Assembly (NCBI GenBank): GCA_015491955.1
Contig: WGFZ01000090.1
Span: forward strand, 1-34,804
DNA: 34,804 nt
Direction of reading: 5' to 3'
Origin: Nitratifractor sp.
GTDB lineage: Bacteria; Campylobacterota; Campylobacteria; Campylobacterales; Sulfurovaceae
Notes under the pieces: model-generated
Told to the model about the DNA's origin: nothing
Seen by the model: the letters and a program-made list of their open reading frames with translations, nothing else
The model's database searches: none
Shown: positions 28,630 to 33,873 of the stretch, in pieces
Layout of the letters: every line of letters begins with the position of its first letter
Numbering within the stretch: the first letter of the stretch is position 1
Program-made: the position numbers and the translations under genes

Positions 28630-28700
28630 AAAAAATAGACATATAAACTATCATTTTATATACTACAATTCTAGCACTTATAATTTGAGGAGTGATAGTT

Positions 28701-29978
28701 ATGAAGTTTGGTGAACTAAAAGAGGCTGGACATTTTCCAACACTCTTAGCAGCTTTTTTATATTTTGATTTTAGTTTTATGGTCTGGACAATGTTAGGAC
28801 CATTAGCTACAGAGATTAGTCAATCTATGGCTCTACACGGTTTTACTATAGATTCTAATCAAAAGGCAACTCTACTAGCTATTCCTATTTTATCTGGTGC
28901 AATTTTGAGAATTATTCTTGGATTTGGAGTAGATAAGATTGGAGCTAAAAAGACAGCTTTAATATCTCAAGCCATTGTAATTGCTTCGCTCTTTTATGCA
29001 TATTTTCGTGGTGAGAGTATTACATATAATGAACTATTAGCTGTAGCTTTTGGTCTTGGTTTTGCAGGAGCATCATTTGCAGTAGCCCTACCTCAAGCTG
29101 GGCAATGGTACCCACCTAGACTACAAGGCTTAGTTCTTGGATTAGCTGGAGCTGGAAATATTGGTGTAGTTCTTGACTTTATATTTGCTCCAAAGATTGC
29201 TCAACTTTGGGGTTGGCAAATGGTCTTTTTAGTAGGTGCAGTACTCTCTACATTTATATTTATAATGTATGCAATTATGGCAAAAGATGCTCCTGCTAAC
29301 ATATATAAACCAAATCCTAAAAAATTGAGAGATTATGCTAAGCTTCTTGGAGATAAAGATACTTGGTGGTTTAGCCTCTTTTATGCTGTTAGTTTTGGTG
29401 GTTTTGTTGGATTTGCTAACTATATGAAAGTATATTTAATGAATACATACCAAGTAGATATGAACCATTTTGGTCTTGAATACCTTAATGAGCCTAACGT
29501 TAAAGTAGTTGCTGGATATTTTGGAGCTATATGTATCTTTGCTGGTGCTGTTTTACGTCCCGTAGGTGGAAATGTGGCTGATAAAATGGGTGGAGTAAAA
29601 AGTCTATATATCTTCTTTGGTCTAGTGGCAATCTTAGCAGTTATTAATGCTACACTTGTTCATAACTTCTATCTTGCTATATTTGTACTTTTCCTTATTA
29701 TGGCAAATCTTGGAATGGCAAATGGTGCAGTATTTCAACTAGTACCTCAACGCTTTGGTAAAGATATGGGTATTATGACTGGTATTGTCGGTTGTGCAGG
29801 AGGACTAGGAGGAACTGCTCTTATTAAGACTCTAGGTTGGTCAAAGGGTGCTTTTGATGGGTATGGTGCAGGATTTTTTATCTTTGCTGGAGTTGTAGCT
29901 ATTGCTATACTTGGTATTAGCCTTGTTAAGACTCGTTGGAGAACAACTTGGGGTGTTAGTGCTGGAGGGCGTATCTAA
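28701..29978 (+). CDS. Nitrate/nitrite transporter, MFS (NarK/NasA type)
   Basis: Start MKFGELKEAGHFPTLLAAFLYFDFSFMVWTMLGPL; QAGQWYPPRLQGLVLGLAGAGNIGVVLD; AVLRPVGGNVADKMGG. ATG at 28701 with GAGGAG Shine-Dalgarno preferred over GTG 28692. Confidence 0.92.
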   Translation: MKFGELKEAGHFPTLLAAFLYFDFSFMVWTMLGPLATEISQSMALHGFTIDSNQKATLLAIPILSGAILRIILGFGVDKIGAKKTALISQAIVIASLFYAYFRGESITYNELLAVAFGLGFAGASFAVALPQAGQWYPPRLQGLVLGLAGAGNIGVVLDFIFAPKIAQLWGWQMVFLVGAVLSTFIFIMYAIMAKDAPANIYKPNPKKLRDYAKLLGDKDTWWFSLFYAVSFGGFVGFANYMKVYLMNTYQVDMNHFGLEYLNEPNVKVVAGYFGAICIFAGAVLRPVGGNVADKMGGVKSLYIFFGLVAILAVINATLVHNFYLAIFVLFLIMANLGMANGAVFQLVPQRFGKDMGIMTGIVGCAGGLGGTALIKTLGWSKGAFDGYGAGFFIFAGVVAIAILGISLVKTRWRTTWGVSAGGRI

Positions 29979-30004: not shown

Positions 30005-31636
30005 ATGTCCTCTCTTTTTAAAACTTCTAGTTTCGGTCTAGCAAAAGGCAAGGAGGTAATCAGTGATGATTTTGCCTCTGTACGTATATTTGATGAGCTA
30101 TGTATCGCTGTACTTTGTGATGGTGTTGGTAGTGCTATGGCTGGAGCTAAGGCATCTCGTAGAGCTGTAAATTACCTAATAAATAACTTTAAAGTTCGCC
30201 CTAAGAGTTGGAGTATAGAGAAATCTCTACGCCATTTTATTAAAAATATTAACTCTATTTTATACCAAGAGGGTATTGAAGAGTATGAGCGTCCTGAGTA
30301 TGTTACAACTTTGAGTGTTGTTGTGATTGAGGGAAATCGTCTATATGGAGCGAATGTAGGGGACTCTCCTATATTCCTACTTAGAGATGATAATCTTATA
30401 CGTCTTAGTGTTCCTCACGTAAGTGATGAGAAGGGAATGGAACACGTCTTAACCCAAGCAATTGGACTTGATGAGAGCGTAGATATATTCTTTTTTGAAA
30501 ATAATCTCCATACAAAAGATAGGCTACTTATTACTAGTGATGGACTTGAAGCTGTTTTTGATGAAAATGAGATAAAAAATAGGATTCCAAATGGTGCAAT
30601 ATCTTTAATAAAAGATGCTAGTAAAGAGCTAAAAGATGATTTACCAGATGATACAACAGCCATTATAATTGAGATTCAAGGGGAGTCTCGTCGTCAGCAT
30701 CTAAAAAAGATAGATTTACCTATTCCAAAGAGTCTAAAAAAGGGTGAAGTGGTTGATGGATACTCTCTAATTCGCCCTCTTATTCAAAATGAGAGAACTT
30801 GGCTTTGTGAAAAGAAGGGTGTTAGATATGTATTAAAATTTCCTCCTATTGAGGCTATAGATGATGAGGTTTATCTTGACCTATTTGTAAAGGAGGCGTG
30901 GAATGCTTCACGTCTTAAAGCTGGTTTTTTTCCAAAGGCTGTTATTCCTGTTAAACGTAGCCTAAGATACTATGTAATGGAGTATATTGATGCTCCAACA
31001 CTAAAAGATGAAATATCCAAAAAACCTCTGCCTATTGAAGATAGTGTAAGTTTAGGGAAATTTCTTCTTCACGCCTCTAGTTTTCTACTAAAGTATGACC
31101 TAGTACACGGCGATATTAAACCTGAGAATATTCTAGTACTACGTCGCCACGGAAAGAGAGTATATAAGCTTATAGATTTTGGCTCTATTGTTGAGATATT
31201 CTCTCTAGCCACACGTGCTGGGACTCCAAGTTACTTAGCTCCAGAGCGTTTCATAGGTGAAAGTATTAGTGAGCAGACAGAGCTTTTTGCTATTGGAGTA
31301 ACACTCTATGAGGTTTTAAGCAAAAAGTTCCCTTATGGAGAGATTGAACCTTTTCAAAATCCAAACTTCAAAACACCTCGACCTCTTCGTACTCTAAATC
31401 CTCTTGTACCAAATTGGTTGGAATCGGTAGTAATGCGGGCAGTAGAAAAAGATAAAAATAGACGTTATGAACTCTATAGTGAGATGGAGTATGAATTGAC
31501 ACACCCACAAAGGGTACGACCATACTATCCAAAAAATACAACTCTACTACAAAGAGAACCTATTAAAGTATATCGATGGGCTTTTACTATATCTATGCTT
31601 ATAAATATAATTTTAATTTTTATACTAATTCATTAA
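30005..31636 (+). CDS. PP2C-type phosphatase / Ser-Thr kinase fusion with C-terminal TM anchor
   Basis: PP2C motifs AVLCDGVGSAMAG, YGANVGDSPIFLL, LITSDGLEAVF, DLPDDTTA; kinase motifs VLKFPP, LVHGDIKPENILV, LIDFGSI, GTPSYLAPERF; C-terminal WAFTISMLINIILIFILIH. Confidence 0.93.
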   Translation: MSSLFKTSSFGLAKGKEVISDDFASVRIFDELCIAVLCDGVGSAMAGAKASRRAVNYLINNFKVRPKSWSIEKSLRHFIKNINSILYQEGIEEYERPEYVTTLSVVVIEGNRLYGANVGDSPIFLLRDDNLIRLSVPHVSDEKGMEHVLTQAIGLDESVDIFFFENNLHTKDRLLITSDGLEAVFDENEIKNRIPNGAISLIKDASKELKDDLPDDTTAIIIEIQGESRRQHLKKIDLPIPKSLKKGEVVDGYSLIRPLIQNERTWLCEKKGVRYVLKFPPIEAIDDEVYLDLFVKEAWNASRLKAGFFPKAVIPVKRSLRYYVMEYIDAPTLKDEISKKPLPIEDSVSLGKFLLHASSFLLKYDLVHGDIKPENILVLRRHGKRVYKLIDFGSIVEIFSLATRAGTPSYLAPERFIGESISEQTELFAIGVTLYEVLSKKFPYGEIEPFQNPNFKTPRPLRTLNPLVPNWLESVVMRAVEKDKNRRYELYSEMEYELTHPQRVRPYYPKNTTLLQREPIKVYRWAFTISMLINIILIFILIH

Positions 31637-31659: not shown

Positions 31660-31684
31660 AAGCAAATAGTATATAAATTTGCTT
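31660..31684. other. Inverted repeat between the kinase gene and mnmH
   Basis: AAGCAAAT-(9 nt)-ATTTGCTT, perfect 8-bp arms, just upstream of a TATAAT box. Confidence 0.5.
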
Positions 31685-31689
31685 CTAGC

Positions 31690-31695
31690 TATAAT
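31690..31695 (+). promoter_or_regulatory. Putative -10 box (TATAAT) for mnmH
   Basis: GCTATAATAGC about 33 nt upstream of the 5'-most open in-frame codon of mnmH; no clear -35. Confidence 0.5.
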
Positions 31696-31727
31696 AGCAT
31701 CAAACTTTTTTGATAAAAGGATATTAA

Positions 31728-32840
31728 ATCGTATCAAGTTCTCTTCCCCTAATTAGTGATTTCAAGTCTATAGTTACTCAAAATCGTCCACTTATTGACC
31801 TAAGAGCTCCTGTGGAGTTTGCTAAAGGCTCTTTTCAAAATAGTATAAATCTTCCTCTATTAACTGACAAAGAGCGTGAGATAATAGGGACAACCTATAA
31901 ACAAAAGGGGAATAAAGAGGCGGTAGCCCTTGGACACAAGATAGTTAGTGGAGATATAAAAGAGAAAAGAATTAACTTATGGATAGATTTTATAAAAGCC
32001 AATCCTAACGCTTATCTATTTTGTTGGAGAGGTGGTCAGCGTTCAGCAATTGTTCAAGAGTGGTTGGCTGATAGGGGAGTTATTATTCCTCGTTTAAAAG
32101 GTGGATATAAAGCCTTTAGAAACTATCTAATTAAAGAGAGTATATCTATTAGCTCATCTAGTAAAATCTATAATATTGCAGGTCGTACAGGAAGTGGAAA
32201 GACTCTACTTTTAAAAGAGTTTCCTCAAGCAATAGACCTTGAAGGAATAGCTCACCATAGGGGTTCAGCTTTTGGACGATATGCTCTAGCTCAACCGAGC
32301 CAAATAAGTTTTGAAAATAATCTTGCTTATGAGTTAATTTTACATAATGAACATAAATATCCTTGGCTCATTATTGAAGATGAGAGTAGAAATGTTGGTC
32401 AAAGATATATCCCACCTGAAGTATTTAATTCATTCAAAAATGCCAAATTAGTACTTCTTGAACGTCCACTTCAAGAGAGAATAGATATTATATATGATGA
32501 TTATATTATCTACTCTCAACAAGAGTATGAAGAGGCATATAACAAAGGTCAAACACCATATACTTGGTATGAGGTAATGCAGTATAACTTTCAAAGAATA
32601 CGCAAACGCCTTGGAGAAGAGCGTTATAAACGACTTATTAAACTTCTTGAAATAGCTTGGAATGAACAAATTTGTAGAGGCAATAGAGAACTCCACAAAG
32701 ATTGGATAGAGACCCTACTTGTAGAGTACTATGACCCTATGTATGATTATCAAATTAAAAAGAAGATCGAGCAAATTATCTTTAAGGGGAATCAAGAGGA
32801 GATTTTAGAGTTTTTCTCCTCTCTTGAGACTAAGAGATAA
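31728..32840 (+). CDS. mnmH: tRNA 2-selenouridine synthase MnmH (SelU/YbbB): rhodanese domain plus P-loop domain
   Basis: In-frame translation from 31728: (I)VSSSLPLISDFKSIVTQNRPLIDLRAPVEFAKGSFQNSINLPLL...FCWRGGQRSAIVQEWL...GRTGSGKTLLLKEF. In-frame stop at 31725-31727; the track's GTG at 31812 would cut the conserved PLIDLRAPVEF. Start codon unresolved. Confidence 0.88.
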   Translation: MVSSSLPLISDFKSIVTQNRPLIDLRAPVEFAKGSFQNSINLPLLTDKEREIIGTTYKQKGNKEAVALGHKIVSGDIKEKRINLWIDFIKANPNAYLFCWRGGQRSAIVQEWLADRGVIIPRLKGGYKAFRNYLIKESISISSSSKIYNIAGRTGSGKTLLLKEFPQAIDLEGIAHHRGSAFGRYALAQPSQISFENNLAYELILHNEHKYPWLIIEDESRNVGQRYIPPEVFNSFKNAKLVLLERPLQERIDIIYDDYIIYSQQEYEEAYNKGQTPYTWYEVMQYNFQRIRKRLGEERYKRLIKLLEIAWNEQICRGNRELHKDWIETLLVEYYDPMYDYQIKKKIEQIIFKGNQEEILEFFSSLETKR

Positions 32841-33873
32841 TTAATGCCTTCTCTTGTGGTGCTATAACCTCTGCTATAACAGTTGTCTCTTCATACCCCT
32901 CATCTATTAAAGAAGATACTAAAGCATCTGCTTGATTTGGATTTATAGCAATTAGTAATCCTCCACTTGTTTGAGCATCATAAAATATAATATCATCGTC
33001 TGTATCTATATCCCATCTACTCTTAGGTGATATATAACTCCTATTATTATAAGTTCCTGCTGGAATTATTCCCATATTAGCCATCTCTAGTGCTTCTGGT
33101 ATGATAGGAAGCTTATCAAACTCAAAATGGATACTAACCCTACCCTCTCCACTCATCTCATAAGCGTGTCCTGCTAAACCAAAGCCTGTAACATCAGTAC
33201 AAGCACTCACATCAAAATCTCTCATCAATAATGACGCTTTATAGTTCAACTTAGCTAAAGTATTGGCAATATATCTTATACGACTCTTAGATAAGAGGTC
33301 AGCTTTTATAGCTGTTGTTAATATCCCCATACCAAGAGGCTTAGTAATAATTAGAACATCTCCAACTCTTGGAGTATCGTTTCTATATATCTGCTTAGGG
33401 TTAGCTAAACCTGTTACACTCAGACCATAAGTCATCTCTGGTGCTTCAATAGTATGCCCACCTACAACAACACCCCCACACTCTTTTACTTTACTAGCAC
33501 CTCCAGCAAGAATTTCAGCAAGTACCTCTTGAGGGTGGTTACAGCCATCAAATCCAACAATATTCATAGCCGTAAGTACATCAGCACCCATAGCAAAAAT
33601 ATCACTAAGACTATTAGCTGCCGCAATTTGACCATAAAAGTATGGGTCATCAACAACAGGTGTAATAACATCAAGAGTTTGAACTAAAGCTCTATTCTCA
33701 TCTAGCCTAAAGACTCCTGCATCTTCGCTACTTCCAATACCAACAATTAAACGCTCATCATCGCTCTTTATCTCTGCTAATATATGTGAGAGATCCGCCG
33801 GACCCAATTTAGCAGCTCAACCAGCAGCTTTGACGAACTTTGTTAGTCTATGAGTATTATCTAACTCTCTCAT
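32830..33873 (-). CDS. selD: Selenophosphate synthetase, selenoprotein with in-frame UGA (Sec19)
   Basis: From ATG 33873-33871: MRELDNTHRLTKFVKAAG[TGA=U]AAKLGPADLSHILAEIKSDDERLIVGIGSSEDAGVF...; UGA at 33819-33817 sits at the catalytic Cys position of SelD. The track's 33807 start is an artefact of the UGA. Confidence 0.95.
33795..33815 (-). promoter_or_regulatory. Candidate bacterial SECIS stem-loop immediately downstream of the selD UGA
   Basis: CUGCU-AAAUUGGGUCC-GGCGG (minus strand) can form a 5-bp stem with G-U pairs and a loop containing GGG; folding not computed. Confidence 0.45.

Follow-up and report, generated by a model that had tools for sequence, protein, structure and literature searches.

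A predicted tRNA 2-selenouridine synthase gene, mnmH (selU), in a 34,804-nucleotide stretch of a Nitratifractor sp. genome (hereafter the window) lacks any canonical start codon compatible with its conserved N-terminus. Comparison with relatives suggests that, in the simplest history, this anomaly is a single G-to-A difference at 31733, the last base of a start codon that was GTG in the ancestor. Either the difference is real and leaves initiation weak at best, or one base was assembled wrongly. We lean, at slightly less than even odds (probability of about 0.45), towards a genuine, recent substitution of the start codon, after which ATC 31728 or GTA 31731 would still support weak initiation. 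The finding rests on one base in one draft genome.

Read directly, the mnmH frame is open for 370 codons, from ATC 31728 to a TAA at 32838-32840 (Table 1). The codons that follow the TAA at 31725-31727 are ATC GTA TCA AGT TCT CTT CCC CTA ATT AGT GAT TTC AAG TCT ATA GTT ACT CAA AAT CGT CCA CTT ATT GAC CTA AGA GCT CCT GTG; none before this last one, GTG 31812, is an ATG, GTG, TTG or CTG. Re-reading bore out the sequence, frame, coordinates and codons given in a preliminary description of the locus, which had reported the missing start. That description did not list codon 2 (31731-31733), and this is the codon homologous to the start of the nearest relatives.

Table 1. Features around the mnmH start and the adjoining selD (positions in the window)
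Feature	Position	Strand	Basis or remark
TATAAT, putative -10 box of the mnmH promoter	31690..31695	+	Position shared with relatives
Shine-Dalgarno-like AAAGGA	31716..31721	+	Aligned with AAAGGA of relatives
TAA stop in the mnmH frame	31725..31727	+	Bars any upstream in-frame start
mnmH/selU ORF, predicted tRNA 2-selenouridine(34) synthase	31728..32840	+	Translation, family models, alignment
ATC, near-cognate codon, possible residual start	31728..31730	+	Read directly; aligned with non-start ACC in nearest relatives
GTA at the GTG-start position of nearest relatives; start-codon substitution or miscall	31731..31733	+	Alignment with relatives
GTG, first canonical in-frame codon, residue after LRAP in conserved motif; unlikely start	31812..31814	+	Invariant D24/R26 would be lost
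selD, convergent with mnmH	32830..33873	-	Translation with TGA=U; ATG at 33873

The protein itself is intact. It gives a full-length family match to MnmH equivalog models above their cut-offs, NF008751 (474.6 bits, cut-off 361) and TIGR03167 (332.6 bits, cut-off 219.75), in line with the MnmH/SelU identity first proposed for it. The rhodanese cysteine is residue 99 (32022), in C99-W-R-G-G-Q-R-S; the CxxG is present and the cysteine is invariant in 56 of 56 sequences. The corresponding catalytic residue, C97, is required in Salmonella (PMC4830565). The translation also contains the Walker A P-loop GRTGSGKT. Family models, cysteine, Walker A motif and SelD supply all point to MnmH/SelU with the predicted 2-selenouridine synthase activity. 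Like the known MnmH/SelU (YbbB), the window gene is full-length above the curated cut-off, has the rhodanese cysteine and P-loop and adjoins selD, but it differs in having no canonical start upstream of the conserved N-terminus. We saw no decay over the 370 open codons: none of the 51 otherwise invariant columns is changed, and the two changes among the 77 columns conserved at ≥95% also occur in some other members. Identity to the orthologue of G007 lies mostly at codon positions 1 and 2 (0.70 and 0.81, versus 0.32 at position 3). When the window-G007 identities are set against those between G007 and G012, mnmH (66% versus 77%) is not accelerated in this lineage relative to selD (77% versus 86%) or nadA (85% versus 94%). 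This intactness limits the time since any loss of function; a weak start and a very recent null allele look identical by this measure.

We gathered mnmH orthologues from 12 other genomes of the genus, from the family (57 matched of 175 genomes searched) and beyond, and tabulated their in-frame start codons against the window gene. Each of the 55 distinct relatives examined has a canonical start (ATG, GTG or TTG) that is reachable from its conserved N-terminus, and a non-canonical start was kept in none of them. The nearest relatives of the window protein (G007, G002 and G001) share 65-66% of its amino acids; searches of the genus, the family and the genome contigs gave no relative above 66% and no conspecific. 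In these three genomes, no start other than a GTG aligned with window codon 2 occurs from codon -15 to codon 12, and the nucleotide alignment reads AAATC-GTA in the window versus AAACC-GTG in the relatives. GTG also occupies this position in G012, G011 and G003, and ATG or TTG does so in several other members of the family. No close relative has codon 1 as its sole start, or an ATC-only start. The comparison of orthologous start codons, which the preliminary description had called for, thus identifies a GTG homologous to GTA 31731-31733. The first few mnmH codons are variable in the family: in L013 (from the same record as L047) the ATG lies at aligned codon 4, straight after an in-frame TAG. 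We also observed that in L031, L054, L056 and L057 the gene is apparently extended N-terminally by ~15-27 codons (...TADEIEAIKKLDLPLTDDF), with a start further upstream; the predicted extended start overlaps or abuts the 3' end of a selD-like upstream frame (...IGETVARGEHLVEVL-stop).

The leader upstream of this codon is conserved. Both elements noted before, AAAAGG at 31715-31720 and the TATAAT box, are real, and the latter occupies an equivalent position in close relatives. In the window it begins at -38 relative to codon 1; the three nearest relatives have it at -40, and most other loci of the genus 22-44 nt upstream of codon 1. The GCTATAAT box is invariant upstream of the mnmH start in nucleotide alignment A1. 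Between the end of the AAGGA core and GTA 31731 the distance is 9 nt, against 6 nt to ATC 31728, and in same-genus relatives the Shine-Dalgarno ends 8-10 nt before the GTG, as read from the tabulated codons. By homology, this spacing favours GTA 31731 over ATC 31728. Shine-Dalgarno scoring used the standard anti-Shine-Dalgarno sequence because the host's own 16S rRNA, like infC, was not found in this 73% complete assembly. The region across the start has no special RNA structure beyond that of shuffled sequences (z -0.62), and the window has no Rfam match. Since the GTG of relatives aligns with the GTA, and the distances of TATAAT and AAGGA to the GTA/GTG codon are maintained between window and relatives, the comparison favours an ancestral GTG at 31731-31733 whose last base, 31733, went from G to A, and argues against ATC 31728 as the ancestral start. 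The start first proposed, ATC 31728, was therefore probably off by one codon. ATC 31728 could still be the codon used at present, because it lies one codon upstream and would pair slightly better with the initiator tRNA.

The reading we prefer, a real substitution with residual initiation, can be set out as follows. In an AT-rich lineage or strain, the ancestral GTG of an otherwise intact mnmH would have become GTA. With promoter and Shine-Dalgarno unaltered, the 30S subunit would still be positioned over ATC-GTA, and fMet-tRNA could initiate at a low rate on the in-frame near-cognate pair ATC 31728 / GTA 31731. IF3 would oppose, and probably limit, this initiation, the product of which would be essentially full-length MnmH. 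The sequences themselves show that a canonical start is missing, that GTA is homologous to GTG, that the leader is conserved and that the protein is intact; we infer both that the base at 31733 is real and that weak initiation persists. The mechanism is proposed by analogy with infC, which starts with ATT in E. coli and ATC in Streptomyces, and with Streptomyces sigR, which has a GTC start under IF3 control (PMC5472188). As in infC, a near-cognate codon follows a Shine-Dalgarno-bearing leader; however, the infC start is conserved and autoregulatory, whereas the mnmH state is found in one genome only and its ancestral codon appears to be GTG. Streptomyces sigR shares with the window gene a non-canonical GTN-class codon at the start position, but it has a very strong Shine-Dalgarno and experimental proof, while the mnmH case is known from the sequence of one genome and its codon is not conserved. 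A third parallel, cited in PMC4607533, is C. jejuni selD, which reportedly begins with a rare CUG codon. By the names of relatives, it belongs to the same phylum as the window gene, and to the same pathway, although both gene and codon differ. On that citation, selenium genes with unusual starts are already on record for Campylobacterota.

Should the base be real, gene callers would miss MnmH or shorten it by 28 residues, including invariant parts of the rhodanese domain. The locus would then be a neat single-base example with which to ask if initiation at GUA or AUC is sufficient for a tRNA-modifying enzyme. If the base is wrong, the locus illustrates how the miscall of one base can pass for exotic biology.

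A first alternative, unlikely but a serious contender, is that the change is real and mnmH is a very recent start-loss null allele: the gene would not be usefully translated and would decay, and the tRNA would lack selenouridine, with selenium retained for selenocysteine proteins. The start is indeed lost, and selA and selB, present on another contig of this genome, together with a selD that itself contains selenocysteine, justify a selenium metabolism with or without MnmH. The gene also seems dispensable, since it is missing from most genomes of the family, with 57 of 175 matched. However, there is no further lesion over 370 codons, the invariant columns are unchanged and mnmH is not accelerated, although these observations bound only the age of a loss.

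A second alternative, which we also regard as unlikely while taking it seriously, is that the true organism has GTG and the base at 31733 is an assembly, consensus or sequencing error. The source is one unreplicated draft genome, 73% complete and in 101 contigs, which leaves room for such an error; the one-base change would account for everything, and all relatives have a canonical start. We surveyed a sample of this genome (20 stretches, ~267 kb) containing 201 ORFs with 120 or more codons, with a method blind to lost starts that have another start codon close by. The first ATG, GTG or TTG lies at least 20 codons after the upstream stop in 10 of the 201, and only mnmH among these has a conserved N-terminus before its first start, N-termini being judged by eye. 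In the others, also by eye, either an ATG stands where the N-terminus is expected or the frame is not a gene. Likewise, no missing start was seen among the other genes of the window, whose frames are open with plausible starts. With no further case in the sample or the window, the assembly is not generally poor or broadly error-ridden, but one base may still be wrong. The change is also in the direction expected of a real substitution, because the genome has drifted towards AT (34% GC versus ~57-59% in the nearest relatives).

The list of options in the preliminary description, namely rare initiation, start-codon loss and sequence error, was the right one, except that a dedicated ATC start at 31728 is disfavoured by the alignment of the ancestral GTG with 31731-31733. 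That MnmH is truly translated from GUA, or from the AUC-GUA pair, as a rare natural GUA-class start with a dosage set by IF3 stringency, seems rather improbable. The literature we searched contained no paper on GUA initiation. Start-codon measurements on 64 codons in E. coli were reportedly made by Hecht in 2017. A selected AUC start at 31728, placing MnmH under IF3 control like infC, is far less credible still. Its codon is in frame directly after the stop, 6 nt past AAGGA, and Streptomyces infC provides a known case of AUC as a near-cognate start (PMC5472188). However, ATC 31728 is not the ancestral start, the Shine-Dalgarno spacing matches GTA better by homology, and an ATC-only start was seen in no close relative, so that a sign of conservation is absent.

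Translation from GTG 31812, the earliest canonical in-frame codon, into a 342-aa protein is the least credible reading of all, because it would drop D24 and R26, invariant in 56 of 56 aligned sequences including distant ones; it would also cut away the beginning of the rhodanese fold, the nearby Shine-Dalgarno match is too weak to be useful and no relative starts there. The alignment with PDB 3g5j, a rhodanese-domain relative of solved structure, begins at residue 8 of the long form. Other candidates were rejected: TTG 31710 is separated from mnmH by the TAA at 31725, TTG 31679 is in another frame, would require a frameshift, overlaps the promoter box and has no support, and the internal ATT 31752 and ATA 31770 lack a Shine-Dalgarno at a usable place.

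The convergent arrangement of mnmH and selD is also found in G007, G012, G009 and G011. In the window, selD has an in-frame TGA at 33819-33817 of the minus strand, at the selenocysteine position (KAAG-U-AAKLGPADL), and a plain ORF caller misplaces its start to TTG 33807. A 53-nt fold around this TGA is no more stable than those of shuffled sequences. Upstream of mnmH, by eye, lies a single gene (30005-31636) resembling a protein phosphatase 2C-Ser/Thr kinase fusion with a C-terminal membrane segment, itself directly preceded by a NarK-like nitrate transporter gene (28692-29978).
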